The notes: generated by a model from the letters alone, not told the origin. Numbered from the stretch's first letter, positions 2 to 22,980 are shown. The stretch is DNA of 32,731 bases from Candidatus Woesearchaeota archaeon (GCA_030154045.1 JASKKU010000010.1:1-32731); one strand, 5' to 3'. Numbers and translations: made by a program.

Positions 2-1432
2 TCTTTTTTAGTTGGTGCGTTGGCTTTTGGTTTGAGTTTATTTCCTGTTAAATCTTTTCCAGCTAGCAATCCTGCTAATGATTATGCTGTGATTTACAAT
101 GTTGATATTAATAAGCGCAATACTGACTTAGGCGATATTAATCTGAGTTTTGATGTTGAGACTTTTGATGATGACAATTTGTTTTCTTTGAAGATTTTAG
201 CAAATGATGAAGTTATTTATGATTCCATTACTCGTGGGGTTTATAAGCCAAAGGGTGATGGTGCCACTTATGAATTTTTTAGAACTTTAGATTTAGACGT
301 TTTTGATTCAAATTTAAAGCCATTGAACTTAGAGATTATAGTTTCTGATGATAAAGATCCTAACAAGATTACAAAGTACGCAACAACCGTAACAATTCCC
401 GAACCAATAATAGGTGTAAAAGATGAAGATTTAGTTGGTGAGTTTACAAAGATTACTGATTTAGTTTTTGATCAATTAGCAGATTACGTAGGTTTTCCTC
501 CTTATCAAAACATATATTTCGCAGAAACAGAAGATTCTTATTATGTATTAGAAATAAAAGGTAGATACGACTTGCATCTAAAAGGGTATTTTGTCTATGA
601 TTTGTATAAAATCCCCAAAGATGCTAAAGATGAATCTGAAGTTTTAAAGTTAGAATGGGGAATAGACTTTAAAGGACTTGAGGCCGCTAAAAAGGATGAA
701 TTATTGATTTATTATAAAGAAGGCTTAGCAGATTTATCTTATATCCTTGATTCAGACTTGTATGATTTACTACGTGAATGGTCTAACGATAAGTTCTACA
801 TTAGAAAAGAGGGTGATAACTTTTATGTACCAAGTCCGAATAAAATACTAAATGAATTTGAACACAATGATAAAATTAAGCTTCTTTTCTCAAGAAATTG
901 TTTTGGTATTTCAGATCTTCCCGGCATTTTTGGAAAAGACAAGATTTATTTAGATAATTCTGGTAATATTACAGACATTCCAAAAGAGGTTTATTTCTTT
1001 GAAGGTGAAAAGAGTAGTGAAGATTTTGTGTATGTTGGTAAAGATACTGGAAATCTGATTGCTCTGAAATTTCGTCAATCAGGAGGTGGTGAGCGTACTG
1101 ATGGTTATATATACTCTTCTTCTTTTTGGGGCATCTTTTTAGGTAATTCAGCATATCTTAAATTCCCAAAGGAGCATGATGAACTACAGGTTTATACTAA
1201 TCTTTATTTTGATAAAGATTTGATTGATTTTTTAAACGGAAAGGATGAAGGAATTGTTGTGGTTGATACATACTATAGTTTTGTTCGTGATCCTGAGTTT
1301 TATTTTTATCCTAACTTAAACCTTTTAAATACAGAATATTTAGAAGAATTATATAAAGGTGTTTATAAAGAAGCTCATTCTGAAATTAAGCAGTTTGTAG
1401 ATGGATTTAAAGAGAAGTATGGGAAAAAGTAA
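2..1432 (+). CDS. Secreted/surface protein, 5'-truncated by window edge
   Basis: Frame is open to the window edge (SFLVGALAFGLSLFPVKSFPASN..., signal-peptide-like). The TTG at 20 in the track is inside the hydrophobic stretch, so the real start is probably upstream. The region after the signal looks beta-rich. Confidence 0.75.
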   Translation, partial: SFLVGALAFGLSLFPVKSFPASNPANDYAVIYNVDINKRNTDLGDINLSFDVETFDDDNLFSLKILANDEVIYDSITRGVYKPKGDGATYEFFRTLDLDVFDSNLKPLNLEIIVSDDKDPNKITKYATTVTIPEPIIGVKDEDLVGEFTKITDLVFDQLADYVGFPPYQNIYFAETEDSYYVLEIKGRYDLHLKGYFVYDLYKIPKDAKDESEVLKLEWGIDFKGLEAAKKDELLIYYKEGLADLSYILDSDLYDLLREWSNDKFYIRKEGDNFYVPSPNKILNEFEHNDKIKLLFSRNCFGISDLPGIFGKDKIYLDNSGNITDIPKEVYFFEGEKSSEDFVYVGKDTGNLIALKFRQSGGGERTDGYIYSSSFWGIFLGNSAYLKFPKEHDELQVYTNLYFDKDLIDFLNGKDEGIVVVDTYYSFVRDPEFYFYPNLNLLNTEYLEELYKGVYKEAHSEIKQFVDGFKEKYGKK

Positions 1433-1489: not shown

Positions 1490-1603
1490 ATGAAATCTAA
1501 AAAAGCTATGCTTTCTTGGATTGATATTTTATTAATGTCAATTTTATTTATTGTAGCACTTCTAATTGCTCGTAGGATAACGCATCTCTTTTTAGCAAAA
1601 TGA
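1490..1603 (+). CDS. 37-aa small membrane protein, first gene of operon
   Basis: MKSKKAMLSWIDILLMSILFIVALLIARRITHLFLAK*. Its stop overlaps the next start (ATGA at 1600). Below the track length cutoff. Confidence 0.7.
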   Translation: MKSKKAMLSWIDILLMSILFIVALLIARRITHLFLAK

Positions 1604-2385
1604 AAACGACTCTAAGAAACCTAATCCTGGGATTGATAGTCTTTGTGGTTTTGTTAATACTTGTTAATAATATGGTGAGAGGACTTTGGTCAGCAGATGT
1701 CTCTTGTTCAGCATTGATTTCAGCAGCGACTAATGTTAAAGATGATGAAAGTAAAAAAGAGTTTTTCACAGAAAAGATGATAGATAAGTGTCAACCTGAT
1801 TTTGTTCAAATTGGGTTAGATCATGTTTCTATAAACGGAATTATAGAACGAGTTCCAACGAAAAATGGTATCAAACCAAGTTTTGAACCTGATGAACTGG
1901 AAGATATTGTTTATTATATCTTTGCTAATGAACTTACGAAGTGTTGGAAATTAGCTTTAGAAGGAAAAGCAGAGTTGTCTGAAAAGTTTAAAAAAGGCAT
2001 AATCTGCTCAAAAATATCTTTAACGAATCCAGCACAGGAATTAATCCTTAATAACAAAATGACTTTTTCAAACTTTTATAATTATCTTAAAACTCATAAG
2101 ATTCCTGAAAAAGAGATTACTTATCAACAATATTTCTTGGAAAATGACTTTTCAGATTTGCCAATTATTGTTGGTTTCTATACTGAAATAGGAATAATTA
2201 AAGAGACTCTCTTAAATTCAGATTTTAAAATAAATCTTCCAAATACATATTATATCTTGTTTATCTCAGAACCTTTATACAAGGATGACTCAGTATCAAA
2301 GCTTTATCTTTTAGGTTCAAGTAATTTCTCAGATTTGCTTTTAGAAACTATTGATTATATACCTATTTATAGAATCTTAAACTAA
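1600..2385 (+). CDS. Single-TM N-terminally anchored protein with conserved-looking Cys/Trp motif
   Basis: ATGA overlap with upstream ORF; N-terminal TM (LILGLIVFVVLLILVNN); ...LTKCWKLALEGKAEL...GIICSKISL. Confidence 0.8.
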   Translation: MKTTLRNLILGLIVFVVLLILVNNMVRGLWSADVSCSALISAATNVKDDESKKEFFTEKMIDKCQPDFVQIGLDHVSINGIIERVPTKNGIKPSFEPDELEDIVYYIFANELTKCWKLALEGKAELSEKFKKGIICSKISLTNPAQELILNNKMTFSNFYNYLKTHKIPEKEITYQQYFLENDFSDLPIIVGFYTEIGIIKETLLNSDFKINLPNTYYILFISEPLYKDDSVSKLYLLGSSNFSDLLLETIDYIPIYRILN

Positions 2386-2387
2386 AG

Positions 2388-2981
2388 ATGAAATTAATAA
2401 ACAAAAAAGGACTTGCATCAAGAGTTTTGGCTGAGTTAATCCTTGGTTCAGTTCTCGTTGTAATTCTTATTGCATTAATTTATTCTTCAGCTCGAAATTC
2501 AAATACAACTGAGAGCGCTTGCCTTCAAAGTCTGATGCTTTATAAAAAAATGGACGACCCAAATGTAATAAAGTGCCCTTTTAATACTGTTAACATTTCA
2601 TCAAAAGATTTGGCTGATTCGCTTATTGCTAAGGAAGTGTTATCTTGTTGGGTAAAGTTTGGTGCAGGTGAAGATGTTATAAATCTTAAAACTGGAGAAA
2701 GCTTTTGTTATACTTGTTCAATTGTAAAAAACTCGCTAAGTGAAACAATCAGATTTGATGTAACTAAAATCTTGGATAATCTGCTTAACCTTGACAGGGG
2801 AGATACTTTACATTTTGGCGAAAATAATTTAAAGATGGAAACGAGTGAATTAAGCCAAGGGGATTTGTTATATATCTATATTGTTATGAATAAAACAAAA
2901 GATTCAATTTTCATGCCTTATGTTGAAATATCTAATCAAAAGAAAGAATTTTGTAATTTTGAAGCTAATTCATTGAGGTGA
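2388..2981 (+). CDS. Pilin-like (KKG-type N-terminus) single-TM protein
   Basis: MKLINKKGLASRVLAELILGSVLVVILIALIYSS; LSCWVKFGAGEDVINLKTGESFCYTCSIV parallels the upstream gene. Confidence 0.8.
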   Translation: MKLINKKGLASRVLAELILGSVLVVILIALIYSSARNSNTTESACLQSLMLYKKMDDPNVIKCPFNTVNISSKDLADSLIAKEVLSCWVKFGAGEDVINLKTGESFCYTCSIVKNSLSETIRFDVTKILDNLLNLDRGDTLHFGENNLKMETSELSQGDLLYIYIVMNKTKDSIFMPYVEISNQKKEFCNFEANSLR

Positions 2982-2985
2982 ATTT

Positions 2986-3138
2986 ATGAACAAAAAAGGT
3001 TTGGCTTTAAGTGAGCTCGGTAAATGGATTTTGTTTATCATTTTTTTGTTAGTGCTCATAATCTTGATTTATAGATTTGGTGCAAAGGGTAATGTAATAC
3101 TAGATAAGATTGTCAATGTTTTCAGGTTTGGTGGTTAA
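2986..3138 (+). CDS. 50-aa pilin-like small membrane protein
   Basis: MNKKGLALSELGKWILFIIFLLVLIILIYRFGAKGNVILDKIVNVFRFGG*, preceded by GAGGTG (SD). Not in the ORF track. Confidence 0.75.
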   Translation: MNKKGLALSELGKWILFIIFLLVLIILIYRFGAKGNVILDKIVNVFRFGG

Positions 3139-3140
3139 AG

Positions 3141-4337
3141 ATGTCGTTCGCAGCATCTAATCTGGGAAAAGCAATCCTGGTTTTGATAGTTATTGTTGTT
3201 AGCACCTTGATTTTTATATCTAAACTTCAAGGCGCTTCTATTCCACTTCTCAACTGGGGCGAAAATCCGGATTCTTCTCAAGGTTCTCCTGTGCTTTCTG
3301 ATATTGAGCTTGCTGATAGAAATATACAATCTTTTTTGGATACTCTCTCAGAAAAAAATTTTGCAGAAGCTAAATTTGATTTGGGGGAAGGAGACTTTTT
3401 TGTTTACTTTGGTATTCTAAATGGAGAATGGTATTATCTGTTGTTTAAGAAGGATCCAAAATTAGGAGAAGGTAATAGTTATAGTGTCAGTCTTGATGAA
3501 AATCTTAAACTTAAAAAAAAGCGATGGTGGTGGTTTGATAAGGTTTATCAGCCAGACTTTATTAAGAATATAAACTTTCAGGTTTATAATGCAAAAAAGT
3601 ATGAGAAACCATTACTATTTTGTGAAAAAAATAAATTTTGCGTTACTGCAAAACTTGTAAATGGCAAAACTTATTACTCTTCTAAATATTTCGAAGAAAA
3701 TGGTTGTAAAAAGTCTTTTTCAAAAACAGTTTTTATATCTTTAAAAAACAATAAATTTAAATCTCTTAATGAGCTTCCTGAATGCATAGATGTTTATGAG
3801 CTTTCTGATAAACTGTTTGATGAGCTTCTTGATAATCTCTCAAAAAAAGGTACCTTATCTCTTGAAGGGTTTAGTGAGCTAACGCCAAATTATATTTATA
3901 TCTTAGGATTGTATAATGATGGTTCTTCAATTAAAAACTTGCTTTTAGGTTATGATATCTCAGACTATGTTCAAAGTGTAAATGAATTGCACATGTTTAT
4001 TAATAATCGATTATGTAATCAGGATTATGATAAAATTGAATTTAATATGTTTTTTGAACAGTATAAGGATCTTTATTTTATGGTTTTAAACAAGGCTTTT
4101 GTTTTTGATAGAACCATAATTTTAAATGATTATCTTAAGGCAAATGGAGTAGAAAATTATGTGACTAAAAAAGGTGAGTTTGTTCCGATTTTAATTATTT
4201 ATAAGGATGGTTATGCTTTATTTTATAGGAATAAAAACAGTTATTATGGATTCTTGGAAGTAACTTGTGATTACAATGGAATTCAGAAAACTATCTCTAT
4301 TAACTGTGAAGATAATCATTACTGTTATCTAGAATAA
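3141..4337 (+). CDS. N-terminally anchored extracytoplasmic protein
   Basis: MSFAASNLGKAILVLIVIVVSTLIFISKLQG TM, then a ~360-aa soluble region; 2-nt gap from previous stop. Confidence 0.8.
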   Translation: MSFAASNLGKAILVLIVIVVSTLIFISKLQGASIPLLNWGENPDSSQGSPVLSDIELADRNIQSFLDTLSEKNFAEAKFDLGEGDFFVYFGILNGEWYYLLFKKDPKLGEGNSYSVSLDENLKLKKKRWWWFDKVYQPDFIKNINFQVYNAKKYEKPLLFCEKNKFCVTAKLVNGKTYYSSKYFEENGCKKSFSKTVFISLKNNKFKSLNELPECIDVYELSDKLFDELLDNLSKKGTLSLEGFSELTPNYIYILGLYNDGSSIKNLLLGYDISDYVQSVNELHMFINNRLCNQDYDKIEFNMFFEQYKDLYFMVLNKAFVFDRTIILNDYLKANGVENYVTKKGEFVPILIIYKDGYALFYRNKNSYYGFLEVTCDYNGIQKTISINCEDNHYCYLE

Positions 4338-4338
4338 A

Positions 4339-5010
4339 ATGATTCCATTTAAAAAACACAAAAAAGGGGAAGCAGCTGAAAAAAGCCAGATGGAATTAGT
4401 TGGATTAATCCTTTCTTTGATAATCATAGTTGTTGTTATCATCATAATCTTCAAGTTTATTAGAATCTTTTCTCCGCATGAAGACCCTTATGCTAAGGCT
4501 TTTTATCAAAGGTTTGTCCAGTCTTTGAAATACCTTGAACCTAATTCTTCAACAGTTGTCGTGTTGACAGGAGAAACAGATGAATATTTTAAAGGTAAAG
4601 ATGGGAACTGGGGAGTGATTGTTATCCCACGAAATTATGATTATAACAATCCTCAACCAATTAATTGTAGTTATAGGAAGGTGCTTTCTGGAGACCTAAA
4701 ACTTGTTAGTCTTGATGAAGGTATTCAATCAATTGAAGGGGTTACTCGCTCAGAGAAAGTATCTTTTTCGTGCGATGAATCCAAGATGTGTGCTTGTTTA
4801 GTTTTTATTAACAAAGATAAGAATATTATTTATGCTAAATGTGATTCTATTCAAACAAGGTTAAATGCAGGAGATCTTGCTTGTTATATCCTTAAGTTTC
4901 CACAACAAACTATTTTAGATTCAAGCGAATCCTTGATAGGCTTCAGATTAGGAATTTATAAAAACAAAGAAGAGAGTCCTGTGCCCGTTTTTAGTTATTC
5001 AGGTGTATAA
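4339..5010 (+). CDS. Pilin-like (KKG-type) single-TM protein
   Basis: MIPFKKHKKGEAAEKSQMELVGLILSLIIIVVVIIIIFKF; Cys-containing soluble domain. Confidence 0.8.
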   Translation: MIPFKKHKKGEAAEKSQMELVGLILSLIIIVVVIIIIFKFIRIFSPHEDPYAKAFYQRFVQSLKYLEPNSSTVVVLTGETDEYFKGKDGNWGVIVIPRNYDYNNPQPINCSYRKVLSGDLKLVSLDEGIQSIEGVTRSEKVSFSCDESKMCACLVFINKDKNIIYAKCDSIQTRLNAGDLACYILKFPQQTILDSSESLIGFRLGIYKNKEESPVPVFSYSGV

Positions 5011-5012
5011 AA

Positions 5013-5243
5013 ATGAAAAAAGGAATGGCGTTTCAAACTCTCGTAGCATTTATTTTAATGATTGTGGTTGTTTTAATAGTTGCAATGATTTTTTATAGAG
5101 GAGCACATAGCGCTTCACAAACATCAGAAAACAAATGCGAGAAATGCGTTGCTTCAGAAAACGAATGCTCTTTAGATGAAGTTCCTGTAAGAGGTTTTGG
5201 TTGTTCTGAAACAGAATATTGCTGTGTTAAGCAAAACATTTAG
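5013..5243 (+). CDS. 76-aa pilin-like small protein with Cys-rich domain
   Basis: MKKGMAFQTLVAFILMIVVVLIVAMIF..., then CEKCVASENECSLDEVPVRGFGCSETEYCCV (six Cys in ~31 residues). Confidence 0.8.
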   Translation: MKKGMAFQTLVAFILMIVVVLIVAMIFYRGAHSASQTSENKCEKCVASENECSLDEVPVRGFGCSETEYCCVKQNI

Positions 5244-5244
5244 G

Positions 5245-5661
5245 ATGATGTCTTTAAAAAAAAAGGGACAAAGTAGCGCAATAATGATGATTATTTTAGA
5301 GTTGATATTACTTTCTTTGATAGGCATTAGTTTAGTAGGTTTTGTTTCCCAAGTTGTCAAGATGGATGATTATAAATTGAAGTCAACCTCGAGAGAGGTT
5401 GCTTTGATTTTTTCCTCTATGTATATGATGAACGATGATGTAAATTTAACTTACATAACTCCTTTTAATAATAAAGATTACTATATCAAAGCAGATGGGA
5501 CTGCGGTTTATGTTTTAAAAAAGGATAATGAAAAACTCTTTCCTTATGTTCATAATACTTCTTCACAGATGAAGTTTAAAGAAACAAGGCTGATAATGTT
5601 AAATTTATCAAAGAGAGGTAGTGTTTTTAGAGGTGAAAGCAGTGAAGAGAGCGGAAATTAG
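5245..5661 (+). CDS. Pilin-like (KKGQ) single-TM protein
   Basis: Start re-assigned from 5197 to ATG 5245 (MMSLKKKGQSSAIMMIILELILLSLIGISLVGF), just after the stop at 5241-5243. Confidence 0.75.
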   Translation: MMSLKKKGQSSAIMMIILELILLSLIGISLVGFVSQVVKMDDYKLKSTSREVALIFSSMYMMNDDVNLTYITPFNNKDYYIKADGTAVYVLKKDNEKLFPYVHNTSSQMKFKETRLIMLNLSKRGSVFRGESSEESGN

Positions 5662-6121
5662 CGAAAACAGTGTTAAGATGATTTTTCATTTTACCTTTGC
5701 AATCTTGGTTCTTGTGATAGTTACAGGTTTGGTGCTGCATTATTTTCAAGGCAGGATTAATTCAGAAGATTTAGAAACACAGGTTTATGCAAACATTGTT
5801 GAAAAATGTTTAAGTAAGGTCGTTAATGACAGAGTTTATGTTGGAGTGATTGACCCTGCAAGAAAAAACAGTTTTCAAGAGTGTTTTTATGTAAGCGCTT
5901 CAGAACCTTATAAAGACATAATGGCTGTAAATGCCAGTCTTTTGATTGATGATAAGAATATTTGGAGTGTGTATTATAATCCTGAAAAATACGAATTTTG
6001 GCGTGCTTCAATAACTAAAAAAGGTCAGTTTAAAAGATATATCTTAGAAAAGAATGTTATTTATGAAGCAGGTCCAAAAAGATATAACGCAAGGTTGTTA
6101 ATAGATGTTATTTATCCGTGA
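5633..6121 (+). CDS. Single-TM N-terminally anchored protein
   Basis: GTG at 5633 or 5621; TM IFHFTFAILVLVIVTGLVLHYF; overlaps the previous gene's end. Confidence 0.7.
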   Translation: MKAVKRAEISENSVKMIFHFTFAILVLVIVTGLVLHYFQGRINSEDLETQVYANIVEKCLSKVVNDRVYVGVIDPARKNSFQECFYVSASEPYKDIMAVNASLLIDDKNIWSVYYNPEKYEFWRASITKKGQFKRYILEKNVIYEAGPKRYNARLLIDVIYP

Positions 6122-6729
6122 AAATGATCTTGAGAAAGTCGAACAAAAAGGGAATGTTTGTTGATCTAGAAGCAGATTTAGCAGGAGTTATTCTTTTTCT
6201 TGTAGCTTTGCTGTTTTTTATGACTCTTTTCTGGATAAAATCTTGCGGCGATACTAGGTCTTCAAACTTTGGTGTGCGCTTTGGAGATAACCTTCAAGCG
6301 TTTTTAAGTTTAGAAACTTTGAAATCATTGAATCTCAATACTGATTTAGCAATAAAAGAGGATGATGCTCAGAAAACATTAACGCCTAAAGATTTACTTT
6401 GTTTGTATTATACAAAAGATAACTTTGAGCTTTATAATATTTCAAAAGGACGAAATGTCTATTTAAGCAAGGATGAGCTTTTGGATTACACTTTTGATGT
6501 CTTGAACAAGTCATTAACTATGGATTATTACAAAAATGAATTGCTAATTAAATTTGAGTTATTTCAAATGTATCTTAATCCAGAGGATGATTCAGGTTTT
6601 TATAGTTCGTTTATTCCAAAAGTTAAACCTGTTGAGCATGTTGAGTTTGTGAGTTATCATTTTGTTCCATGTTCAAATTTTTCAGTGAGAGTTAATTTTT
6701 TAATAAAACCCGAAATCTTTGAAAAATGA
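6118..6729 (+). CDS. Pilin-like (KKG-type) single-TM protein
   Basis: MKMILRKSNKKGMFVDLEADLAGVILFLVALLFFMTLFW; GTGA overlap with previous stop. Confidence 0.75.
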   Translation: MKMILRKSNKKGMFVDLEADLAGVILFLVALLFFMTLFWIKSCGDTRSSNFGVRFGDNLQAFLSLETLKSLNLNTDLAIKEDDAQKTLTPKDLLCLYYTKDNFELYNISKGRNVYLSKDELLDYTFDVLNKSLTMDYYKNELLIKFELFQMYLNPEDDSGFYSSFIPKVKPVEHVEFVSYHFVPCSNFSVRVNFLIKPEIFEK

Positions 6730-8750
6730 TTCCTAAAAATAAGAAAGGACTTGCATTTAATGTTTTTATTGCAGTTTTTGGGATAATTGCTTTAAGTATT
6801 GCATTGTATAGTTTTTCTACACAGAATCTTGAGCATGAATTGGGTGAACCAATTCTAAAGATGTTAAGATTTTATTCTGATTCTGAAAGATTAAAAAATT
6901 ATTTGGATGATGCTGTTAGACTTGAGGCAAATAACCTCACTTTTAAATTTGCTGAGAAAGGCGGGATTTTAGAAGACTGCTTTATTTACAGGAACAAAAC
7001 TTTGTGGACCCAAAGAAACAAGAAATGTTTTACTTTAGAAAAGCTTAATCAATCATTTAATAATCTGCTAAACAAGAATTTAAAGGAAAGGTATAAAGAA
7101 TATCCTTTTGAGTTCTTTGATTTTGATTATGATTTCATATTTGATAATGATGTTTTGATTGGTAAACCTCAATCTGATTTAAAGATTGTGAGAACAACAT
7201 CTTTTCCAGAGTACCTCTCGTTAGAAAAAGTTAAAGTTCCGCAAGCATTTACTAATGTTTCTGATTTGGAGATACCTTCGACTCTTTTTGTAAAATTTTT
7301 GAAATTGAACTTCTGTGATTTATCAAGCTTTTCTAATAAAGAACAAGAATATTATGAAACTCGTACAGCAATAATAGTTCCTAGAACATATAATCCTGAT
7401 GATTTTAAGTTTTACATTAATTCTTATGACTCTGATAAAAGATGTATTTATTTAGATTATAAAGGAAATAACTCGTTGTATCCTTCACCTTTTTTTAATC
7501 CTGTGCCAACAGTTCGTGAGAAAATAAAGTTTTGTGGTTTAACTTTAATTTATGATTCAGGCGTTCTTAAGATTTGTGATGATGAAAAAAATCGTATAAT
7601 CGAAACGAGAGTTGATGTTCCTAAAACGCAACTTTTTGTAAATCCGATTGTTAACATAGATTTAGGTTTGGATTATCTTGAAGTTTATGAGAATATAAGC
7701 AAGGTTTTAAATGAATTGAAAAGTATTTGTGGTAGTAAAAAAGATGTAGAAAATTGTGTCGAGGATAACAAAGAAATTTTTGAAAAATATAATCTAAATG
7801 TTGTTGATTTGCAAAGCAATAAAGAGAAAGCATTTTATGATTTTGTTGATGATATCATGATGTGCGAGCAGTCTGATGATAAAAACTGTGCTTGCAATTT
7901 CAGGAAAGTAAATAAGGATAATGATTTAAGTGTTATGTGGTTTAGTTCTTTGCCTAATGAGGGTTCTTTTCTCAAATCATCTTTTGATGGGTTTAATGGT
8001 GATTATAAACAAGCATTTTTCTCGTTTTCTGATGTCAATTCTTTTGCTTTTGCTTATAATTTAAATAAATCTGGCTTGATGAATACTCCAAACTGCGCTG
8101 TTAATCCTTTGGTAGAACCTTTCTTGTATTTGCGTTTTTTTGATGAATTTTCCTTGAAAACTTATCGAGGATTTGATTTTCCATTGAATTATGAAGATAA
8201 AATAAAAGTGATTACTGTTGGAGATTCTAATTTAATTAATAATGTTGAAACGAATTTAGATCATTCTCTAATAAAGACTTTTAATGGAAAAGTTTGTTTG
8301 GTCGATCCAGAAGTTCCTGAAAGTATAGCTACAATTTATTATTTCTTGTATGCAAACTATATTGGAGAAAAAATAAGAAACCCAACAGATCCAGATATTG
8401 AAGAAAAAATTCTAAACCCTTTGCAAAAATTTTATGATAATAATTTTGGTAAATTTTCTAAGTTTAATTTCTTAAACTTCTGTGATATTTTGAAAAACTA
8501 TAATTTTGATTACGAAACTTTATTCCCTGAATGTAATTCCTTATTTGATGAGAATAGTCAATTGCGGCCTTCAATTGTGAAGCATGTAGTCTTTGATAAC
8601 TTTAAAGAAGACTTGAAAAAACTCAAAAAGAAGAAATGTAATGTTGAAAGACATTACTTCAGGTTTGATTTGGAGTATAATAACTATGTTTTTAATTACA
8701 AAACATTTAAGTTTGAGAAACCTGTTTTCAGTTTTTCAGCATATATCTAA
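6726..8750 (+). CDS. Large pilin-like (KKG-type) anchored extracytoplasmic protein, last gene of operon
   Basis: MIPKNKKGLAFNVFIAVFGIIALSIALYSF; ATGA overlap with previous stop; 674 aa. Confidence 0.8.
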   Translation: MIPKNKKGLAFNVFIAVFGIIALSIALYSFSTQNLEHELGEPILKMLRFYSDSERLKNYLDDAVRLEANNLTFKFAEKGGILEDCFIYRNKTLWTQRNKKCFTLEKLNQSFNNLLNKNLKERYKEYPFEFFDFDYDFIFDNDVLIGKPQSDLKIVRTTSFPEYLSLEKVKVPQAFTNVSDLEIPSTLFVKFLKLNFCDLSSFSNKEQEYYETRTAIIVPRTYNPDDFKFYINSYDSDKRCIYLDYKGNNSLYPSPFFNPVPTVREKIKFCGLTLIYDSGVLKICDDEKNRIIETRVDVPKTQLFVNPIVNIDLGLDYLEVYENISKVLNELKSICGSKKDVENCVEDNKEIFEKYNLNVVDLQSNKEKAFYDFVDDIMMCEQSDDKNCACNFRKVNKDNDLSVMWFSSLPNEGSFLKSSFDGFNGDYKQAFFSFSDVNSFAFAYNLNKSGLMNTPNCAVNPLVEPFLYLRFFDEFSLKTYRGFDFPLNYEDKIKVITVGDSNLINNVETNLDHSLIKTFNGKVCLVDPEVPESIATIYYFLYANYIGEKIRNPTDPDIEEKILNPLQKFYDNNFGKFSKFNFLNFCDILKNYNFDYETLFPECNSLFDENSQLRPSIVKHVVFDNFKEDLKKLKKKKCNVERHYFRFDLEYNNYVFNYKTFKFEKPVFSFSAYI

Positions 8751-10288: not shown

Positions 10289-11224
10289 ATGTTTGGAAAA
10301 AATAGTCTAGATAAGCTTGTGGAATCTACCTTTGAGTTTGTGTCTACTGTTGATAGATACTATCAAACCCTGGTTTTATCAGGGAAACCCATGAAAGGTT
10401 TAGACCAACTTTCTGAACTGCATAAGGTTCATTATGGATTGAAAAACCATCCTATTGTTAGGTTGGACTTTGATTTTCCCCTAGGCCTTTTTGGCGAGTC
10501 TGTCAAAAAGAAAATTCTTAAAAGAAAAATTGTTTCTGTTGGAACAACTTCATATATTTTGGAATTAAAAGAGAGTTATTTTCGGTCATTAGAAGAAATA
10601 AAGCGAGTGAAAGAGAAAATAGAGAAGGATAAGGATTTGTCAAGCATATATCCTACAGATTATCTCGCTGTTGATATAAGAAAACATAATTTCACTATTG
10701 ATGAGGCTTTAACCCAGTATTCGCTTCTGCAGGAATTCTCTCAAGAAGTACTGCACACTCTTGATCACTTTGAATTTTTGGATTCACCTAAACTTTTTTC
10801 ATATAAGAATCATAAAAAGTATTGTGAAAGTTTTGAAAGCCTCGTGAACAGGTATGAAGAGTTTTATGAATATTATAAAATAACCAAAGATAGAATCAAA
10901 TTTGATCTAAAAAATGGTGATGAGCCAAAGTTTTTGGCGAAGTTTTCCCTGAAACAATTATACGAGAATATTAACACTTTAAAGGAAATTTTGGACAACA
11001 TTTTTTCAAAGAATTTTAAGAAATTCAAAAATGATAAAGGACTTTATTACTATCGTGATAAGATTAATTACCAAATTGATGAATTGATTAAGAGTTATAA
11101 CTCTGTTTTAAAGAATATGAGTGTTAAGGAGCTTGAGAAAGGAATTAACTTGATTGAAAGCCAAAACTCAAAATATGTTAAGAGTGTAGGAAAGTTGCTT
11201 TATTATCAAAACCAATTAAAATAA
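10289..11224 (+). CDS. Coiled-coil-rich protein, tandem paralog family member 1
   Basis: Shares the C-terminal motif (LEKGINLIESQNSKYVKSVGKLLYYQ) and internal motif (KFLAKFSLKQLYENI) with the next four ORFs. Confidence 0.75.
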   Translation: MFGKNSLDKLVESTFEFVSTVDRYYQTLVLSGKPMKGLDQLSELHKVHYGLKNHPIVRLDFDFPLGLFGESVKKKILKRKIVSVGTTSYILELKESYFRSLEEIKRVKEKIEKDKDLSSIYPTDYLAVDIRKHNFTIDEALTQYSLLQEFSQEVLHTLDHFEFLDSPKLFSYKNHKKYCESFESLVNRYEEFYEYYKITKDRIKFDLKNGDEPKFLAKFSLKQLYENINTLKEILDNIFSKNFKKFKNDKGLYYYRDKINYQIDELIKSYNSVLKNMSVKELEKGINLIESQNSKYVKSVGKLLYYQNQLK

Positions 11225-11240
11225 TGCTTGGGTGAAAAAA

Positions 11241-12191
11241 ATGAATAAAGAAGAGTTTAAAGCGTATAAGGCGTTGGATGTTTTGGTTAATGAGGTTATT
11301 AATTTAGAAAAAATCTCTAAAACCTTTGCTGATAAAGTCAATAGTAAAGATTTGATATATGTTTTAGAACAAGATTCTTATAAAGTTAGCGAACCTTTTA
11401 AAGCGCCTTATTTTGAGAAAAGAATTAGTAATGCAGCAAGCCTTGAGGTAATTTTGCCTAACTTTGAGGTTCTTTTGAAAAGTGGAGAAAAACTTAATTT
11501 AGAAAAACTTAAAGAGATTAAAGAGGATAATGCTGCTCTTGAAAAGTATTACTCTAAACTTCAGGATGCTTTAGGCTATTTGATTGATTTAACTCATACA
11601 GATGATGGTTTAACACATTCTGATTTAACGCAAGTGCTTAACGATTTTGCTGAATCGCCTGTGATTAATACCGATGAAGGGTCTTTGGCACAAACAGCAG
11701 TTTCTGTTGAACCACAAGAGCAAGAAGAATTAACCTTAAAGGATTATAAAGATGCTTTTAGAAAGGTTTATTCCTTATGGCTTGATGTGTCTAAAGAGTA
11801 CAAATCTTTGGTTTCAAAGGGAGTAATAAAACCTGAAACTGATGATTTTGGGCTTTATTTTAAGATAGACATCTTTAAGCTGGTTGAGGGTGTCAAGGAA
11901 TATTCAAAAAAGATTAAAGAATTAGAGGATATGTTTGACAACCTGAAGCTAGAGAATTATGAACTTAAGGATCTTGAATGGATAAAGAAACAGTATGCTG
12001 TTATTAAGGAGCGTGTTAAGAATATTTTAGATTTCTCTTCTCAGTTTGCGAATACAGGATTGTTGCAGAAGTTGTATGGTGGTATGAATTTGCTGGATAA
12101 GGAAAATAAATCTTTCCTAAATCCTTTGAGCAAGATATTCTATTACCAAAACTTCCAAAGAACTAATCAAATGGGTGAAAAGTATGAGTGA
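11241..12191 (+). CDS. Coiled-coil-rich protein, tandem paralog family member 2
   Basis: Start placed at ATG 11241 after SD GGGTGA; SYKVSEPFKAPYFEK and GMNLLDKENKSFLNPLSKIFYYQ. Confidence 0.75.
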   Translation: MNKEEFKAYKALDVLVNEVINLEKISKTFADKVNSKDLIYVLEQDSYKVSEPFKAPYFEKRISNAASLEVILPNFEVLLKSGEKLNLEKLKEIKEDNAALEKYYSKLQDALGYLIDLTHTDDGLTHSDLTQVLNDFAESPVINTDEGSLAQTAVSVEPQEQEELTLKDYKDAFRKVYSLWLDVSKEYKSLVSKGVIKPETDDFGLYFKIDIFKLVEGVKEYSKKIKELEDMFDNLKLENYELKDLEWIKKQYAVIKERVKNILDFSSQFANTGLLQKLYGGMNLLDKENKSFLNPLSKIFYYQNFQRTNQMGEKYE

Positions 12192-13008
12192 AAAAAATAA
12201 AATCAAAGGACACAAGGCTTTGGATAGTTTAGTTGATGGACTTATTTCTTTAGAAAAGAAGTCTAAGGCCTTTGCTAGTGATGTTAACAATAGGGGATTG
12301 TCTTCTGTTTTAAGAGGTGAGTCCTATAAAGTTAGCGAACCTTTTAAAGTGCCCCATTTTGAAAAGAGTTTTGATGATATAATTGAGATTGGGTTATACT
12401 TTCCTAATTATGAAGTTTCGTATGATTCTGAAAATGTGTTCAATGAAAACAAACTAATGAACTTAAAGGCAACAAATTCCGGACTTAAGGACTACCATGT
12501 TAAGATCCAGGAGGCTTTGACATTTTTGGAATGTATCCTTGAACCACAGCAAGATATGTCAGAGAAAGAGTATCTGAAGTTATTCAAGAATGCTTACTAT
12601 GCTATCACTAATGTTTTTGAAGAGTATACCAACTTAGTATCTGACGGTGTTATAAAACCAAAAGACGATGATAAGCCAGGGTTTTATGTAAAAATTGACC
12701 TACAAAAACTCATTGGTGGTGTTGATAAGTTTAAGGATGCTTTTGCAAACATAGAAGGAAAGATTGATAATTTAGAGGGCAAAAACAGCAGAAGGTTAGG
12801 GTTGTTTGGTTTTGCATTGAAGAGAAAATATAAAACTATTAAAGACTATGCTGATAAAGTTTTAGAGATTTATTCAAATCTTTTGGAAAATGGTTATGTT
12901 GAAGAGTGGAATAAAGGAATAAATTTGCTTGATAAAAGTAATAAGAAGTATCTTAAGCCTTCAGCAAAACTTATGTATCAAAGCAAATCTAAAAAATGGA
13001 TTGATTAA
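12184..13008 (+). CDS. Coiled-coil-rich protein, tandem paralog family member 3
   Basis: Start placed at ATG 12184 after SD GGGTGA, overlapping the previous gene; SYKVSEPFKVPHFEK and KGINLLDKSNKKYLKPSAKLMYQ. Confidence 0.75.
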   Translation: MSEKNKIKGHKALDSLVDGLISLEKKSKAFASDVNNRGLSSVLRGESYKVSEPFKVPHFEKSFDDIIEIGLYFPNYEVSYDSENVFNENKLMNLKATNSGLKDYHVKIQEALTFLECILEPQQDMSEKEYLKLFKNAYYAITNVFEEYTNLVSDGVIKPKDDDKPGFYVKIDLQKLIGGVDKFKDAFANIEGKIDNLEGKNSRRLGLFGFALKRKYKTIKDYADKVLEIYSNLLENGYVEEWNKGINLLDKSNKKYLKPSAKLMYQSKSKKWID

Positions 13009-13012
13009 AACA

Positions 13013-13828
13013 ATGAGTCTAAACTTTTCGGCTCTGGAAAAGATTGTAGAAAGTTATAAGGATTTGAAAAGGGGCTATGGAAAGTTAGTTAAAGAAGTTG
13101 ATGAATTAAATCTGCAGTGGCCTGTTAAAAAAAAGAGAAAAATCATGTATGAGAAGTATAGTTTAAGCGGTTTTGATTTTTCTTTTAAAGAAAGTGTTGT
13201 TAAAATTAATCCGAAAATTTCAGCTTATAAGTTAAGCAAGGCTTATGAAAGGAATTATTCAATTAATCCTGACGATGAAATTATTAAGAAGAATAATAAA
13301 GCTTTAGATGACTTTTTTAGAATGGATGACGATTTGGTTTTAGAATACAACGATTTCAAGAGTTTAAAAAACCCGAACAACTTTTCTTCGAAAAAAGAAT
13401 ATGTTGAAGAGTTTTCTAAAGCTGTTGATTTTTTGTTCGATATCAATAAGAAGTATAATTCTTTAAGAAACGAGCACGTATTATTCGGCAAAGATTTTCA
13501 TTATAAAATAAAGCTTAATTTTAAGGAACTATATGAAAAAGTATCAAAGTATAATACTTTTCTTGAACATAGGATTAAAGAACTTGAAGCTTATGAATCC
13601 ACAAAAGGTCAAAAATCTAAAAATGTTTCTCAAGTTATAAAATCTTTACATTATGAAAAAGGCAAAGCTAAGGAGTTTTTGAAAACTTATGATGCTATAA
13701 ATAATAAGATGGGTCTGTTGATAACAGAGCTTTCACAAGGATTAGATATTCTCGATCCGGATTTGAAACTATCTAAAAGGCATATAAAATCGCTTGCAAA
13801 ATTAATCTTTGAGTTAGGAACTCTTTGA
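13013..13828 (+). CDS. Coiled-coil-rich protein, tandem paralog family member 4
   Basis: Start re-assigned from 12929 to ATG 13013 (MSLNFSALEKIVESY); QGLDILDPDLKLSKRHIKSLAKLIFE. Confidence 0.72.
   Translation: MSLNFSALEKIVESYKDLKRGYGKLVKEVDELNLQWPVKKKRKIMYEKYSLSGFDFSFKESVVKINPKISAYKLSKAYERNYSINPDDEIIKKNNKALDDFFRMDDDLVLEYNDFKSLKNPNNFSSKKEYVEEFSKAVDFLFDINKKYNSLRNEHVLFGKDFHYKIKLNFKELYEKVSKYNTFLEHRIKELEAYESTKGQKSKNVSQVIKSLHYEKGKAKEFLKTYDAINNKMGLLITELSQGLDILDPDLKLSKRHIKSLAKLIFELGTL
13346..13419 (+). repeat. 74-bp exact direct repeat, copy 1 (in paralog 4)
   Basis: tacaacgatttcaagagtttaaaaaacccgaacaacttttcttcgaaaaaagaatatgttgaagagttttctaa, identical to 14251-14324. Confidence 0.9.
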
Positions 13829-13875
13829 TTTCTCTATGTATTTTTTGGAATTTTATGTATTGCTTAAACGAAAAA

Positions 13876-13883
13876 TTTATAAA
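13876..13883 (+). promoter_or_regulatory. TATA box upstream of paralog 5
   Basis: tttataaa, 32 nt before the ATG at 13915; GGTGA SD between. Confidence 0.55.
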
Positions 13884-13914
13884 TTGATAAGATTTACCCC
13901 TATTTGGTGATAAT

Positions 13915-14712
13915 ATGGGTTTGTTTAAATCAAGCCTTGAAAGTATTGTGGATAGTGTTTTGGACATGCCAAATGTTTCTAAGAGATTAAGCGAGAAGAT
14001 CAACTCCTTAGGCATACCTGTTGTTGAGAAACATGACGGATATTCGTTAAAGAATAATTATCAATTAAGTGAGTTATCTTTGGAGTATGATAGAAAGAAA
14101 ATTTTTAATGTTATTCCAAAATTTCCAGTTTATAGATTAAGCAAGGCCTATGAAAGGAACTATTCAATTAACTCTGATGACGAAATTATTAAGAATAATG
14201 AGAAAGTTTTAGATGAATTTTTTAGAATGGATAGAGAGTTCATCTCTTGCTACAACGATTTCAAGAGTTTAAAAAACCCGAACAACTTTTCTTCGAAAAA
14301 AGAATATGTTGAAGAGTTTTCTAAGGCTATTGATCGGTTATTTGAATATAATGATCTCTATAAATCTTTGAAAGAAAAGGGAGTACTTACAGGACCAGTT
14401 TTCGAATATAGAGTTAAGTTTAATTTAGAGGAATTCTTAAAACCGCTTTATGGCTATCATTCGTATTTGAGCGAGCAAATTGAACAACTTAAATCTATGG
14501 GTTCTAAGGAGGGTGTTGAAAACGCAATTGATTATCTTGAACACGAGAAAAAACGGTTAGAGAAAATTATGAAGAAATATGATACATTCAAAACTAAAAA
14601 TGGTGAGTTATTATCTAAACTAAAGAAAGGATTGAACATCTTTGAATACGGTAAAAAAGAAAGCAAGAAAATAATAAAAACAGTAGCTAAGTTTTTGTAC
14701 GAAGCCGCATAA
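13915..14712 (+). CDS. Coiled-coil-rich protein, tandem paralog family member 5
   Basis: LSKAYERNYSINSDDEIIKNN... is near-identical to paralog 4; KGLNIFEYGKKESKKIIKTVAKFLYEAA. Confidence 0.75.
   Translation: MGLFKSSLESIVDSVLDMPNVSKRLSEKINSLGIPVVEKHDGYSLKNNYQLSELSLEYDRKKIFNVIPKFPVYRLSKAYERNYSINSDDEIIKNNEKVLDEFFRMDREFISCYNDFKSLKNPNNFSSKKEYVEEFSKAIDRLFEYNDLYKSLKEKGVLTGPVFEYRVKFNLEEFLKPLYGYHSYLSEQIEQLKSMGSKEGVENAIDYLEHEKKRLEKIMKKYDTFKTKNGELLSKLKKGLNIFEYGKKESKKIIKTVAKFLYEAA
14251..14324 (+). repeat. 74-bp exact direct repeat, copy 2 (in paralog 5)
   Basis: Identical to 13346-13419; flanks are diverged. Confidence 0.9.
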
Positions 14713-14754: not shown

Positions 14755-16122
14755 TTATTTTACTTTCTTTTCAGATTTTTCCTCTTGTTCTAATAATTTT
14801 CCCAAAGATTCTATCTGTGCGGTTATTTCATGTAGTTCCGAGTCTACTTTCTTTTCTAATTTCATAATCTCTGGCAATAATACTTTATCTTTATGTTCAA
14901 TTAATGCCTCAAGGTGTGTTATTCTGTCTATAATCCTGCTAATATGCTCATTGCTAGGTATTTCACTATGGGTTAATCTGTCAAAGAGAGATTCAACCTC
15001 GGTAATTATGCTTTTAATCTCTGAGGATTGTTGATTAAATTCATCTTCCAACCTTTGCTTAGTTATCTTATATTCTTGATCAAAAGTATTTATTATGGTA
15101 TTTACTTCTCGTTGAGCTTTTCTGACTTGTTCTCTTAGTCTTTCTTTTTGATCCTTACTCATCCTTGTTTTTTCTATTCTTTTCATAATGTCTTCAGAAG
15201 TTTCATCAAAAGCTCTCTTCGTGTCTCTGAATTCTTTTCCTAGAAGATTCTCAAGTCTTACTAACTTTTGTTGATATTCTGTTTCATCACCAAACTCTCT
15301 TTGAATCTTCTTAATTAATTTCTTAATTCCAGGGATATATTTTTTGATTTCAGTGAATGCTGTTATTCTTTCACTTTCGCTTTTGATAACTGCAAGATTT
15401 TGAATTATCTTTTCTAAATTTGTTAAAACTTCTTTAAGTTTCTCTAAAGGTTTGATCTCTTGTTCATCATTTAGGTCTATCCTTTTTAATTCTTTTAGAA
15501 TGCTTTTTGATGTTTTGATATCTCTTGTAACTTCCTTTGCTTCAAGTTGGCTCTCTCTGATCATCTTTTTGTCTGAAGCAAGGTCTTTGTAGTAATCTTT
15601 TTTAAGATTTATTCCTTCTTTATGCCCATGTAATCCAAGTCTTAAGAAGATAAATACAAGGAATAAAGCAACTACTGTATAAAGAACGATAGACCCTGAG
15701 AAAACCAATAGGATTACAAGGTATTTTGTAGTGTCTGTAAAGAAGACTACTAATGAAGATATTAAGAGAGTAAATACAATTGCAGGACCTTTTTTGTCTC
15801 TTTTTATCTGATTCTTGAAAGGAGGGACCTCTTCAATAAGTCCATATAATATTATCGTTACAACGATAAATGTTAAAAGCACAAAAAGTAATGGCATCGT
15901 TTGTTTTCCGTTTGTGCCAAATTGGAACGACTTACAGAGCACATTTTCTAATGTTTCTGTTGGAATCAATTCGTTACATTTCGATTCCGCTCCACGAATT
16001 ATTCCTATATTTTTTGCATCCAAATTTTTAACAGCCCCAATTATTAGAGGCAATACTATAAATATAATCACTATTATGAACAAAAACCAGCCGATAAAAT
16101 TACCTTTTTTTGACATTCTCAT
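14755..16122 (-). CDS. Multi-TM membrane protein with long C-terminal coiled coil
   Basis: MRMSKKGNFIGWFLFIIVIIFIVLPLIIG..., about four hydrophobic segments in the first ~170 aa, then ~280 aa of charged heptad-like sequence. SD AAGGTGG upstream on minus strand. Confidence 0.78.
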   Translation of the reverse strand: MRMSKKGNFIGWFLFIIVIIFIVLPLIIGAVKNLDAKNIGIIRGAESKCNELIPTETLENVLCKSFQFGTNGKQTMPLLFVLLTFIVVTIILYGLIEEVPPFKNQIKRDKKGPAIVFTLLISSLVVFFTDTTKYLVILLVFSGSIVLYTVVALFLVFIFLRLGLHGHKEGINLKKDYYKDLASDKKMIRESQLEAKEVTRDIKTSKSILKELKRIDLNDEQEIKPLEKLKEVLTNLEKIIQNLAVIKSESERITAFTEIKKYIPGIKKLIKKIQREFGDETEYQQKLVRLENLLGKEFRDTKRAFDETSEDIMKRIEKTRMSKDQKERLREQVRKAQREVNTIINTFDQEYKITKQRLEDEFNQQSSEIKSIITEVESLFDRLTHSEIPSNEHISRIIDRITHLEALIEHKDKVLLPEIMKLEKKVDSELHEITAQIESLGKLLEQEEKSEKKVK

Positions 16123-16501: not shown

Positions 16502-17200
16502 ATGGAGAAAAGGTTTATGGCTGTATTAATGGCGGTTGCGATGGTGTTGTTTTTAGCGAATAATGTATTTGCAGCAACGCCTGGTGGTGCGCAGGTTACA
16601 GATAACGGAGAAAATACCTATACGCCTGAAAGTCCGCAGACTGTTGATGTGAATGCAGGTGCAATTCGTAATGCAGACCTAACTGCAGAGATGTCAACAT
16701 ACAGGTGGGCAGGTCTATTTGGTAATGCAAGTGGTACTATTGTTTTAGCAAGCGGCAGTGGTTTATCTGCAAATAAAATGTTTGAATGGTCTGCTAATGC
16801 AACTTTGGTGTTTGCATCTACTGCGGGAAGTGTAACTTGGAGTTCCCTAGCAGCAGCAACTGAAGCACAGGTTACTACAGCTTTTAGTCATTTAAATAGT
16901 GGTTCAGACAGTTATGCAAATACTTTTACAGGAAGTGAAGCTTTAACAACACAAACTGTTGCAGCAGGATCTATAGCAAGTGCACCATATGCAATAACAA
17001 AAGATGATACTGCATCAGATTACTGGAAGACCTATGCTCTATACGATGGTGCTAATGTGGTCTTTGCAGGATTAGTTGTTCCAGCAGGTCATAACAGCTA
17101 TAATGGAACATTGTCACAGTATCAGATGATCTTGCCAGAAGATGGAACTAACACAGACAGCAACCCAACAACCTATAATGTTTGGTTAGAGCTAATATAA
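16502..17200 (+). CDS. Small secreted protein, 'WAGxxGNxSG' family, paralog 1
   Basis: Signal peptide MEKRFMAVLMAVAMVLFLANNVFAA; ATPGGAQVTDNGE...YRWAGLFGNASGTIVLASGSGLSANKMFEWSANA; SD gaggtgg. Confidence 0.85.
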   Translation: MEKRFMAVLMAVAMVLFLANNVFAATPGGAQVTDNGENTYTPESPQTVDVNAGAIRNADLTAEMSTYRWAGLFGNASGTIVLASGSGLSANKMFEWSANATLVFASTAGSVTWSSLAAATEAQVTTAFSHLNSGSDSYANTFTGSEALTTQTVAAGSIASAPYAITKDDTASDYWKTYALYDGANVVFAGLVVPAGHNSYNGTLSQYQMILPEDGTNTDSNPTTYNVWLELI

Positions 17201-17410: not shown

Positions 17411-18100
17411 ATGAAGAAACATTTGATATTACTTGTTGTAGCAGTATTGTTAATTTTGCCATACTATGCTCTTGCAGTAACGCCTGGTGGCGCTCAAATA
17501 ACAGATAATGGAGAAACAGGTTATACAGAAAGAAGCCCTGACAGTGTAAATGTTACTGCAGGTTTCATAAGAAGTGCTGACCTTTATGCAGAGATGTCAA
17601 CATATAGATGGGCAGGTCTATTTGGTAATGTTTCGGGAACAATTGTCTTAGCAAGTGGCAGTGGTTTATCTGCAGATAAAATGTTTCAATGGTCTGCTAA
17701 TGCTAGTGTTGTTTTTGCATCAGAAGCAAGCTCTGTTGCTTGGAGCAGTTTAACTAATGTAAATGAGACACAGGTTCTAGCTAATTACTCTTTTCTAGGA
17801 AGTGGGTCAGATAACTATAATGCAACATTCAATAATGTTGGTACTCTTAACACAAACACTGTTCTTGGTGGTTCAATCAATGCAAACTTTGCAAACACTT
17901 TAGATAATGAATCCAATGCGTTCTGGAAAACGTTTATACTAGGAGATGGAAGTAATATTGTGTTTGCAGGAGTTGTAGAACCAGCAGGTCACGCCAGTTT
18001 TAATAGCTCAATTGTTCAGTATCAGATGATCCTTCCAGAAGATGGAAGTAACGGAGATACAACCGCAACCGCCTATAATATCTGGGTAGAGTTAATATAA
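17411..18100 (+). CDS. Small secreted protein, 'WAGxxGNxSG' family, paralog 2
   Basis: Signal peptide; VTPGGAQITDNGETGYTERSPDSVNVTAGFIRSADLYAEMSTYRWAGLFGNVSG; SD ggaggtg. Confidence 0.85.
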   Translation: MKKHLILLVVAVLLILPYYALAVTPGGAQITDNGETGYTERSPDSVNVTAGFIRSADLYAEMSTYRWAGLFGNVSGTIVLASGSGLSADKMFQWSANASVVFASEASSVAWSSLTNVNETQVLANYSFLGSGSDNYNATFNNVGTLNTNTVLGGSINANFANTLDNESNAFWKTFILGDGSNIVFAGVVEPAGHASFNSSIVQYQMILPEDGSNGDTTATAYNIWVELI

Positions 18101-18498: not shown

Positions 18499-19371
18499 TT
18501 ATAATGCGCCGAGATTTCCATAAACCAAGAACTCAATTATAGAGAGTAATGCAATAAGTATGCCTAAGTAATAGCTGGACCTTATTGAAACGCTTGTTTC
18601 TTTGGAAGTGGCTTTTTCAAACGCTTCTTTTAATTCAGTTTTATCTGTAATATGGTATGCTGTTCCATTAGTTTCACTAGCAATTCTTTTTAGGTTTGTT
18701 AAATTGAATTGCATTTTATTGTATAAATCCAAGAACTCTTCAGGGATTTCTGAGGTGTTAATGATTTCTGTATCCTCATCTGAACCTATACCAAAAGCCA
18801 ATATCTGGATACCTTCAGATTTTGCTTTAGCAAGCGTTTTGTTGTCAACATCTTTTGTTCCGTCGCTAATTAATATCACTCTCTTGTTCTTATCGCTCTT
18901 TGAAAGAAGTTGGTAAGCAAAATTCAAAGCATAATCTAATGAGGAGCCTGCTTTTGAGTAATCTATTGTTATTTCTTTTATAGATTCCTTGACCTTTCTC
19001 TTATCTAAAGTCAAGGGAACATAACTTTGTATATCTGATGAGAACGCAACTAAGCCAACCCTTGTAGAATTAGGCAAGAAATCCACCCATTCTGAAGATA
19101 TCTCTTTTGCAGCTTCTAATCTGTTAGGTGGATAATCTGTTTTTGTCATAGAAGGCGAAGCATCAATTACTAAAACATAATCTCTGTCCATTAGAGGAAC
19201 TCTTTTGCTGATGCTTATGGAATCCGTTGCTACTAAAAACAGAAGGGCAACCAGTAGAATTTTTAAGAATAGTACTGAATAACTGACATCAAATTTCTTA
19301 AACCCATGAACTTTTTCTATTGTTCTAATGTTCCCAAAGTAAAGTGCTCTTCTTTTTCTTAATCGCACCAT
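18499..19371 (-). CDS. vWA-domain (BatA-like) membrane protein; N-terminus probably extends upstream to about 19479
   Basis: DRDYVLVIDASPSMTKTDYPPNRLEAAKE (MIDAS DxSxS), ISDGTKDVDN, TMs at both ends. The upstream in-frame region encodes another TM. Confidence 0.82.
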   Translation of the reverse strand: MVRLRKRRALYFGNIRTIEKVHGFKKFDVSYSVLFLKILLVALLFLVATDSISISKRVPLMDRDYVLVIDASPSMTKTDYPPNRLEAAKEISSEWVDFLPNSTRVGLVAFSSDIQSYVPLTLDKRKVKESIKEITIDYSKAGSSLDYALNFAYQLLSKSDKNKRVILISDGTKDVDNKTLAKAKSEGIQILAFGIGSDEDTEIINTSEIPEEFLDLYNKMQFNLTNLKRIASETNGTAYHITDKTELKEAFEKATSKETSVSIRSSYYLGILIALLSIIEFLVYGNLGAL

Positions 19372-19472
19372 TAAAAAGAAACTGATTACTGTTAATGTGA
19401 TTAAACCAATGAGTAAAGTTACTTCTAACCAAGGATAGATTATTTGTACAGTGTAACCAGCAATATTAAAGC

Positions 19473-20378: not shown

Positions 20379-20415
20379 TTTAATAATTAGATGTTGTAAA
20401 GTGTTTCAATATTGT

Positions 20416-22332: not shown

Positions 22333-22980
22333 ATGAAAAGATTTTGGGTTTTATTTGGAGTGGTTTTGTTGATGCTTTACAGTTTTACAGGTTTTGTAAG
22401 AGCAGATCCTACTGGTGCAACTGTTACTGCAGGAACAGCAGTAACTGGTAGTGGTACAACTTCTGATAATATAACTATCAATGCAGGAGAAGTAATGTCT
22501 GCAAATATTTATGGTAAAACAATAACAACAAAGTGGGCAGGTTTCTATGGTAACATCTCGGGAGGAATCTCCTTAGAAGATAGTTCAGGAAATGTGTTTT
22601 ATAACTGGAGTGTTTCAGATGTAACAGGTGCAGTGGTTTATGCTGCAAACGATACGGTAAGTGATTGGACTTTATCCAATGCAAGCGAGGCAGATATGCC
22701 TGCATATGTACAAGGCACAGCAACAGACAGCTTTAGCAATACTTTCACAGCATCAGAGCAGTTTACAAGCCCAACAAAAACAGTTGATAATGTATTGTAT
22801 GCAGTAACTTATGGTACTGGAACCTTTAAGACTTATGCATTAAAAACAACAAGTGAGATTATCTTTGCAGGTAAATCTCCAGGTACCGCAGCAGGTTTCA
22901 ATGGCAACAATGTAGATTATCAGATATTAGTTCCAGCACAGAGCAATACCAACTATTACTTTTACCTAGAGTTGCCATAA
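22333..22980 (+). CDS. Small secreted protein, 'WAGxxGNxSG' family, paralog 3 (divergent)
   Basis: Signal peptide MKRFWVLFGVVLLMLYSFTGFVRA; GKTITTKWAGFYGNISGGISLEDSSGNVFYNWSVSD; SD gaggtggg. Confidence 0.82.
   Translation: MKRFWVLFGVVLLMLYSFTGFVRADPTGATVTAGTAVTGSGTTSDNITINAGEVMSANIYGKTITTKWAGFYGNISGGISLEDSSGNVFYNWSVSDVTGAVVYAANDTVSDWTLSNASEADMPAYVQGTATDSFSNTFTASEQFTSPTKTVDNVLYAVTYGTGTFKTYALKTTSEIIFAGKSPGTAAGFNGNNVDYQILVPAQSNTNYYFYLELP

Follow-up and report, generated by a model that had tools for sequence, protein, structure and literature searches.

Gene organisation of the operon

The DNA analysed here, called the window throughout, is a 32,731-nucleotide (nt) stretch of a Candidatus Woesearchaeota archaeon (GCA_030154045.1 JASKKU010000010.1:1-32731) and represents the complete contig C14 of its genome, G000 (805 kb, 29 contigs, 95% complete). 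Woesearchaeota form a huge order of tiny, probably host-dependent archaea. The subject of this analysis is a run of eleven back-to-back open reading frames (ORFs) on the plus strand, between positions 1490 and 8750 of the window (Table 1), which are separated by gaps of 1-4 nt or joined by 4-nt ATGA/GTGA overlaps, with one 20-nt overlap at 5642. Each product has a single hydrophobic helix at its N-terminus and no further transmembrane (TM) segment, so that the ORF coordinates and the TM count confirm the coupled eleven-gene operon proposed in an earlier note, which had been made on the sequence alone. G and L numbers label the genomes and loci compared, and the letters B to R are our names for the subunit families, obtained by reciprocal matching of the fetched loci.

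Table 1. Reading frames of the operon and the gene upstream of it, with lengths in amino acids (aa), assigned subunit families and phmmer matches in the loci of relatives
ORF	Position	Strand	Length (aa)	N-terminus	Subunit	Relatives and remarks
W00	20..1432	+	at least 470	soluble	membership uncertain	upstream of W01, cut by contig start; no Pfam match and no relative among fetched loci
W01	1490..1603	+	37	KKA + TM	F, by position only	tiny; position of the small gene before G in L032, L035 and L047 (F has 35-55 aa in relatives); too short, no sequence match in relatives' loci
W02	1600..2385	+	261	TM, no class III-like site	G	L036 gene 11357-12838, E 4.7e-11
W03	2388..2981	+	197	KKG + TM	H	L032 E 1.3e-9; L047 E 1.6e-9
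W04	2986..3138	+	50	KKG + TM	I	tiny; L032 E 6e-11 and L035 E 9e-8, both at the equivalent operon position
W05	3141..4337	+	398	weak site (GKA)	J, by position only	no sequence relative by phmmer against fetched loci
W06	4339..5010	+	223	KKG + TM	N-terminus like E (QMELVGL)	operon place differs from that of E; E-family profile A2 E 1e-3; L033 E 3.7e-5
W07	5013..5243	+	76	KKG + TM	K	small, Cys-rich; L044 E 7e-9 plus others; family of 19
W08	5245..5661	+	138	KKKG + TM	O	L032 E 2e-8; L035 E 5e-7
W09	5642..6121	+	159	KRA + TM	P	L030 E 5e-15; L031 1e-9; others
W10	6118..6729	+	203	KKG + TM	Q	L030 E 1.3e-4; at Q's position in relatives
W11	6726..8750	+	674	KKG + TM	R	large, presumed distal subunit; E down to 1.6e-22 (G001), 2e-12 (G005)

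Conservation and extent of the gene set

A search of 60 relatives with W11 gave matches in 19 genomes, all at low identity, and the loci fetched from relatives contain a long run of single-TM KKG/KKA proteins in conserved order. The window genes are collinear with these families (W02 = G, W03 = H, W04 = I, W07 = K, W08 = O, W09 = P, W10 = Q, W11 = R), and for all of them except W01 (1490) and W05 (3141) the corresponding operon in other genomes contains a related sequence. The synteny is seen in 18 relatives' loci and in 12 loci from named genomes, the latter retrieved with a subunit C profile built from a 4-row alignment of the C family; these 12 loci show the same families in order, and all belong to Candidatus Woesearchaeota, Nanoarchaeota or Nanoarchaeia records. 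Homologs thus keep the same gene order in relatives and are not scattered, which, together with the class III-type signals described below, supports the view that the genes encode one multi-subunit surface complex, as the earlier note had suggested.

The spread of the system was followed with a profile of the R N-terminal module (A7), which finds a match in 256 of the 292 genomes of the order. A short form of R, with open frames of about 150-310 aa among the matches listed, occurs in 49 genomes of the other orders of the class. In L032, L033, L035 and many of L077-L136, RPA comes directly after R, and RadA lies nearby in several of these loci; this recurrent neighbourhood of ssDNA-binding and recombination genes is absent in the window lineage.

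The window does not hold the whole system, only half of it. On contig C7 of the same genome, one run encodes a 2,057-aa surface protein followed by subunits B, C, D and E. Since homologous giant proteins (about 1,700-2,200 aa) lie directly upstream of B in relatives, the operon is counted as split in G000, with F-R in the window and B-E on C7. The eleven genes are therefore half of a predicted surface machine that is conserved in most members of the Woesearchaeota order.

Signal sites and leader peptidase

A basic pair plus G or A precedes the TM helix in nine of the eleven window ORFs; seven carry [K]KKG before the hydrophobic stretch, as stated earlier, and two further ones carry KKA (W01) or KRA (W09). 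Among the operon proteins of G000 and its relatives, a basic pair plus G, A or S stands before the TM in 201 of 225, versus 5 of 43 other proteins with an N-terminal TM, a contrast whose significance is indicative only because the sequences are related. Two A24 leader peptidases are found in G000, one on C1 with a match 47 bits over the cut-off and a weaker one on C4, together with Arc_PepC. Both the motif enrichment and the presence of the peptidases support the earlier assignment of the subunits to the class III signal type.

Probable motor ATPase and membrane partner

The earlier note had seen no assembly ATPase. This holds for the window, which is the whole of contig C14, but not for the genome, where a check for assembly ATPase and platform genes on other contigs located a T2SSE ATPase with two T2SSF proteins on C2, and on C10 a 750-aa T2SSE ATPase next to a 709-aa multi-TM partner with no Pfam T2SSF match. 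A T2SSE ATPase of 750-800 aa is present in 29 of the 32 genomes tested, and its neighbourhood is conserved in relatives. The most informative arrangement is that of G311, in which orthologs of the C10 ATPase (E 9e-273) and of its partner (E 1e-179) directly precede the pilin-like genes on the same strand, followed by F, G/H, I, J, K, an SLT-bearing KKG protein, O, P, Q, R and RPA. This cluster is the strongest evidence that the C10 ATPase and its partner are the motor of the apparatus, and by extension they would serve the operon in G000 as well. We rejected a shorter T2SSE ATPase (480-560 aa) as the one tracking the operon, since several R-positive genomes carry only the 750-800-aa type; the R-positive genomes without the shorter type are G040, G086, G090, G156, G178 and G193. 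The loci of the 750-aa ATPase (L137-L140, L144) also encode two small soluble proteins and a tandem array of three 5-TM paralogs (about 180-210 aa), all of them conserved from family to family.

Presumed distal subunit R and its peptidoglycan hydrolases

W11 consists of an N-module (about residues 1-155) and a C-module (303-412 onward), and it shows the hallmark of the R family, an N-module after the TM (invariant G40, C, W, C) encoded at the end of the operon. In relatives the hydrolase sits between the R N-module and a C-module that W11 shares. The structural model of W11, with a predicted local distance difference test (pLDDT) score of 39, was too poor for use, and PDB sequence searches with the R N-module, the E family and R returned nothing significant.

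Of the first 18 loci, 16 encode a hydrolase either in R or in the gene that immediately follows. Because these loci had been picked by similarity to W11, a second sample of 60 further R proteins was drawn, mostly one or two per family. At a Pfam E of 1e-4 these contain M23 (11), SLT (8), Amidase_2 (4), VanY (4), M15 (3), NlpC/P60 (3), 3D (2), Amidase_3 (1) and M74 (1), so that 26-33 of the 60 have at least one hydrolase domain, a range that allows for proteins with several; in the R protein of L118 an amidase, M23 and SLT stand in tandem. Both metal-binding motifs are intact in 14 M23 domains. None of 70 sampled operon proteins other than R has a hydrolase of these kinds, with an exception outside the order, the KKG subunit of G311, which bears SLT and a C-terminal part that looks amidase-like by eye.

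The transpeptidase of wall synthesis, PF00905, is absent from 14 of the 16 genomes tested, so the hydrolases have no evident substrate in the producer, and synthesis of a wall of their own appears unlikely in these genomes. Contamination was rejected as the source of the hydrolase in G011, a single-contig genome whose sole M23 lies inside the operon. A hidden M23 domain in W11 was likewise rejected, PF01551 being absent from both G000 and G001, as was the idea that the outer orders with a short R are hydrolase-free, given that several of these genomes have SLT or M23 elsewhere and G311 has SLT on an operon subunit. Giant secreted proteins of about 2,200 aa bear SLT or M23 in the class's other orders (L145 2202-10843, L146 3182-11940, L147 7252-14025), and those of L145 and L146 adjoin a gene whose relative in G011, upstream of the apparatus, encodes the KKGQITFF protein.

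G000 itself encodes two SLT proteins, one of 369 aa on C18 and one of 814 aa, multi-TM, on C16. The latter adjoins a 401-aa KKGQ protein whose N-terminus weakly matches subunit Q, and the pair (L142, G000:C16:1-7967, 2452-6126, minus strand) is perhaps a second, related system.

Proposed function and alternatives

We consider it fairly likely that the products of the operon are membrane-anchored subunits of a contact apparatus which resembles a type IV filament, which occurs in Woesearchaeota and neighbouring DPANN archaea, and in which R is a swappable envelope-attack module. The eleven window subunits F-R, together with B-E, would insert through their N-terminal TM, and most of them would be processed at KKG/KKA by an A24 leader peptidase. 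The subunits would then be pulled out of the membrane by the 750-aa T2SSE ATPase and its 709-aa partner, with the last ones, O-P-Q-R, forming the distal tip and R exposed. R would present an exchangeable domain; for much of the order this is a peptidoglycan hydrolase, and it could open the wall of a contacted bacterium for predation, parasitism or feeding. The roughly 2,000-residue surface protein, A, may be the adhesin. The wall hydrolases borne by R in many relatives suggest a pilus-like device for opening bacteria. The proposal assigns no target in the window's own species, whose W11 has no recognisable hydrolase.

Several observations weigh against this proposal. W11, which has no Pfam match at all, and its family mate in G001 lack a hydrolase cassette recognisable by Pfam, and the same is true of about half of the R proteins sampled; hydrolases are found outside the operon too in these genomes. 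PF00905 is present in G011 (C1:1062871-1063686) and G049 (C263:5644-6258), both of them Woesearchaeota-type genomes, which would be expected to be free of peptidoglycan. The ATPase is unlinked to the operon in G000, and its assignment as the motor rests on G311 and on co-distribution. The description of the operon as a pilin-like surface structure stands as far as the signal/TM layout and the motor genes are concerned, and it is on these that the term pilin-like is used here; it does not extend to a pilin family or fold. Pfam and NCBIfam gave no pilin family among the operon proteins, the best match to archaellin PF01917 (E 0.21, N-terminus of W07 only) being under the cut-off, and a confident model of subunit E (pLDDT 83), comprising the TM helix, further helices and four C-terminal strands, had no Foldseek match below 1e-3 among solved structures, pilins included. 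The apparatus is thus said to work like a type IV filament and is not filed as a type IV pilus.

The lack of a pilin match in the Foldseek search of subunit E, the hydrolase-free half of the R proteins, soluble parts that range from a few residues to more than 1,000, and the secreted binding-type domains around the operon (LamG/pentaxin, Ig-like) would also suit a membrane-anchored, non-filamentous scavenging complex, whose signal-anchored subunits stay in the membrane and display R at the cell surface, where it breaks down peptidoglycan debris as a source of amino sugars and amino acids. However, the class III-like motif [KR][KR][GA] and the linkage of the T2SSE ATPase and its partner in G311 point to an assembled, energised structure, and we regard scavenging as unlikely. 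A pseudopilus like that of a type II secretion system (T2SS) would have R as a GspK-like cap and the hydrolases as freely diffusing weapons or nutritional enzymes, their fusion to R being a by-product. Against it, the hydrolase mostly forms one protein with a TM-anchored subunit and so would not be released, and the outer membrane in which a T2SS secretin would sit is missing in archaea. Such a secretion device is quite improbable, even though a set of many different single-TM subunits with an ATPase looks alike and separate secreted hydrolases (GH25, SLT, M23, VanY) adjoin R in several loci. Lastly, the hydrolases could help a DNA-uptake or DNA-transfer device to cross the wall of a bacterial partner, competence pili being type IV filaments and RPA, often with RadA, lying behind the operon in many genomes; yet these are housekeeping genes that are not adjacent in G000, and envelope attack fits the diversity of hydrolases better, which leaves this explanation very improbable.

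Returning to the contact apparatus, a plausible, more tentative extension is that it is an undescribed contact weapon or host-entry machine and a core feature of Woesearchaeota and related DPANN orders, the distal subunit of which is tuned to the envelope of the partner, so that the domain carried by R, or in cases like G311 by a sister subunit, would predict whether that partner is bacterial.

Relation to known systems

The Kil (Tad-like) pilus of Myxococcus xanthus, which detects and kills prey, has 14 minor pilins, tiny adapters and large tip pilins with variable domains (PMC12075869). The apparatus is comparable to it in layout and would work in a like manner; membership in Kil/Tad is not claimed. 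The likeness would lie in the many minor pilins including tiny Flp adapters (KilO has 59 aa; compare W01 and W04), in a set that ends in one large pilin exposing a variable distal domain, in the contact with other bacteria and in a T2SSE-type motor (PMC8460266, PMC12075869). Kil is bacterial, however, its toxicity depends on a needleless type III secretion system, and the paper mentions neither peptidoglycan nor a hydrolase (PMC12075869), whereas in the Woesearchaeota operon the hydrolase is built into a subunit.

Class III-like sites, an A24/PibD-type peptidase, a T2SSE ATPase with a membrane partner as the probable motor, and several small single-TM subunits in one cluster are shared with archaeal type IV pili and the archaellum (PMC4858521), from which the operon differs in lacking a Pfam pilin or archaellin domain, in its 15-17 unlike subunits and in the fused wall hydrolases. 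The census of archaeal type IV pili does not mention DPANN or Woesearchaeota (PMC4858521). The type II secretion pseudopilus (GspG-K) also combines several single-TM subunits and a large terminal one, GspK, with a T2SSE/F motor, the counterpart of the motor predicted here; in contrast, the operon has more subunits, no secretin or outer membrane, and a cargo domain fused to a subunit.

Wall hydrolases in Nanoarchaeota and Woesearchaeota are already known (PMC12352652, PMC9723730). As in our loci, bacterial wall hydrolases occur in peptidoglycan-free archaea, prominently Nanoarchaeota/Woesearchaeota, in the work on archaeal peptidoglycan hydrolases that kill bacteria (PMC12352652), and as lytic transglycosylases in the 'vampiristic' Woesearchaeota (PMC9723730). 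In neither report are the hydrolases tied to pilins, pili or an operon, whereas many of those described here belong to a subunit of a conserved apparatus, and the scattered enzymes of these reports would gain a possible delivery device. Our search of the open-licence literature found no description of a pilin operon in Woesearchaeota or of a link between hydrolases and such an operon; earlier work may exist, and the complex, which the earlier note had called possibly undescribed, is apparently so as a system. Little is known of the partners of Woesearchaeota, among the largest archaeal orders, and the DPANN archaea in culture are described as living as ectosymbionts on archaeal hosts (PMC11291902). 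With an almost ubiquitous apparatus that in many lineages bears fused bacterial wall hydrolases, it would become testable, from genomes and purified proteins, whether these archaea attack or live on bacteria, and on which.

Other genes in the window

Five consecutive soluble, coiled-coil-rich, paralog-like proteins are encoded at 10289-14712 (plus strand), right after a divergent acylphosphatase/SIS-type pair, and similar soluble genes lie behind such a pair in G001 (L030). A 455-aa protein outside the operon (14755-16122, minus strand), with no significant Pfam match, has SKKG before its first TM, additional TMs and a long helical C-terminus. The reading frame at 25204-32730 (plus strand), cut by the contig end, encodes 2,509 aa or more of a surface protein in which DUF2341, pentaxin/LamG and H-type lectin domains occur. 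Three small, mutually similar secreted proteins (16502-17200, 17411-18100 and 22333-22980, plus strand), with the motifs TPGGAQ.TDNGE / DPTGATVT, are interleaved with a MoxR-DUF58-VWA-like gene set (18499-22008, minus strand) and are possibly surface-layer or adhesin paralogs.

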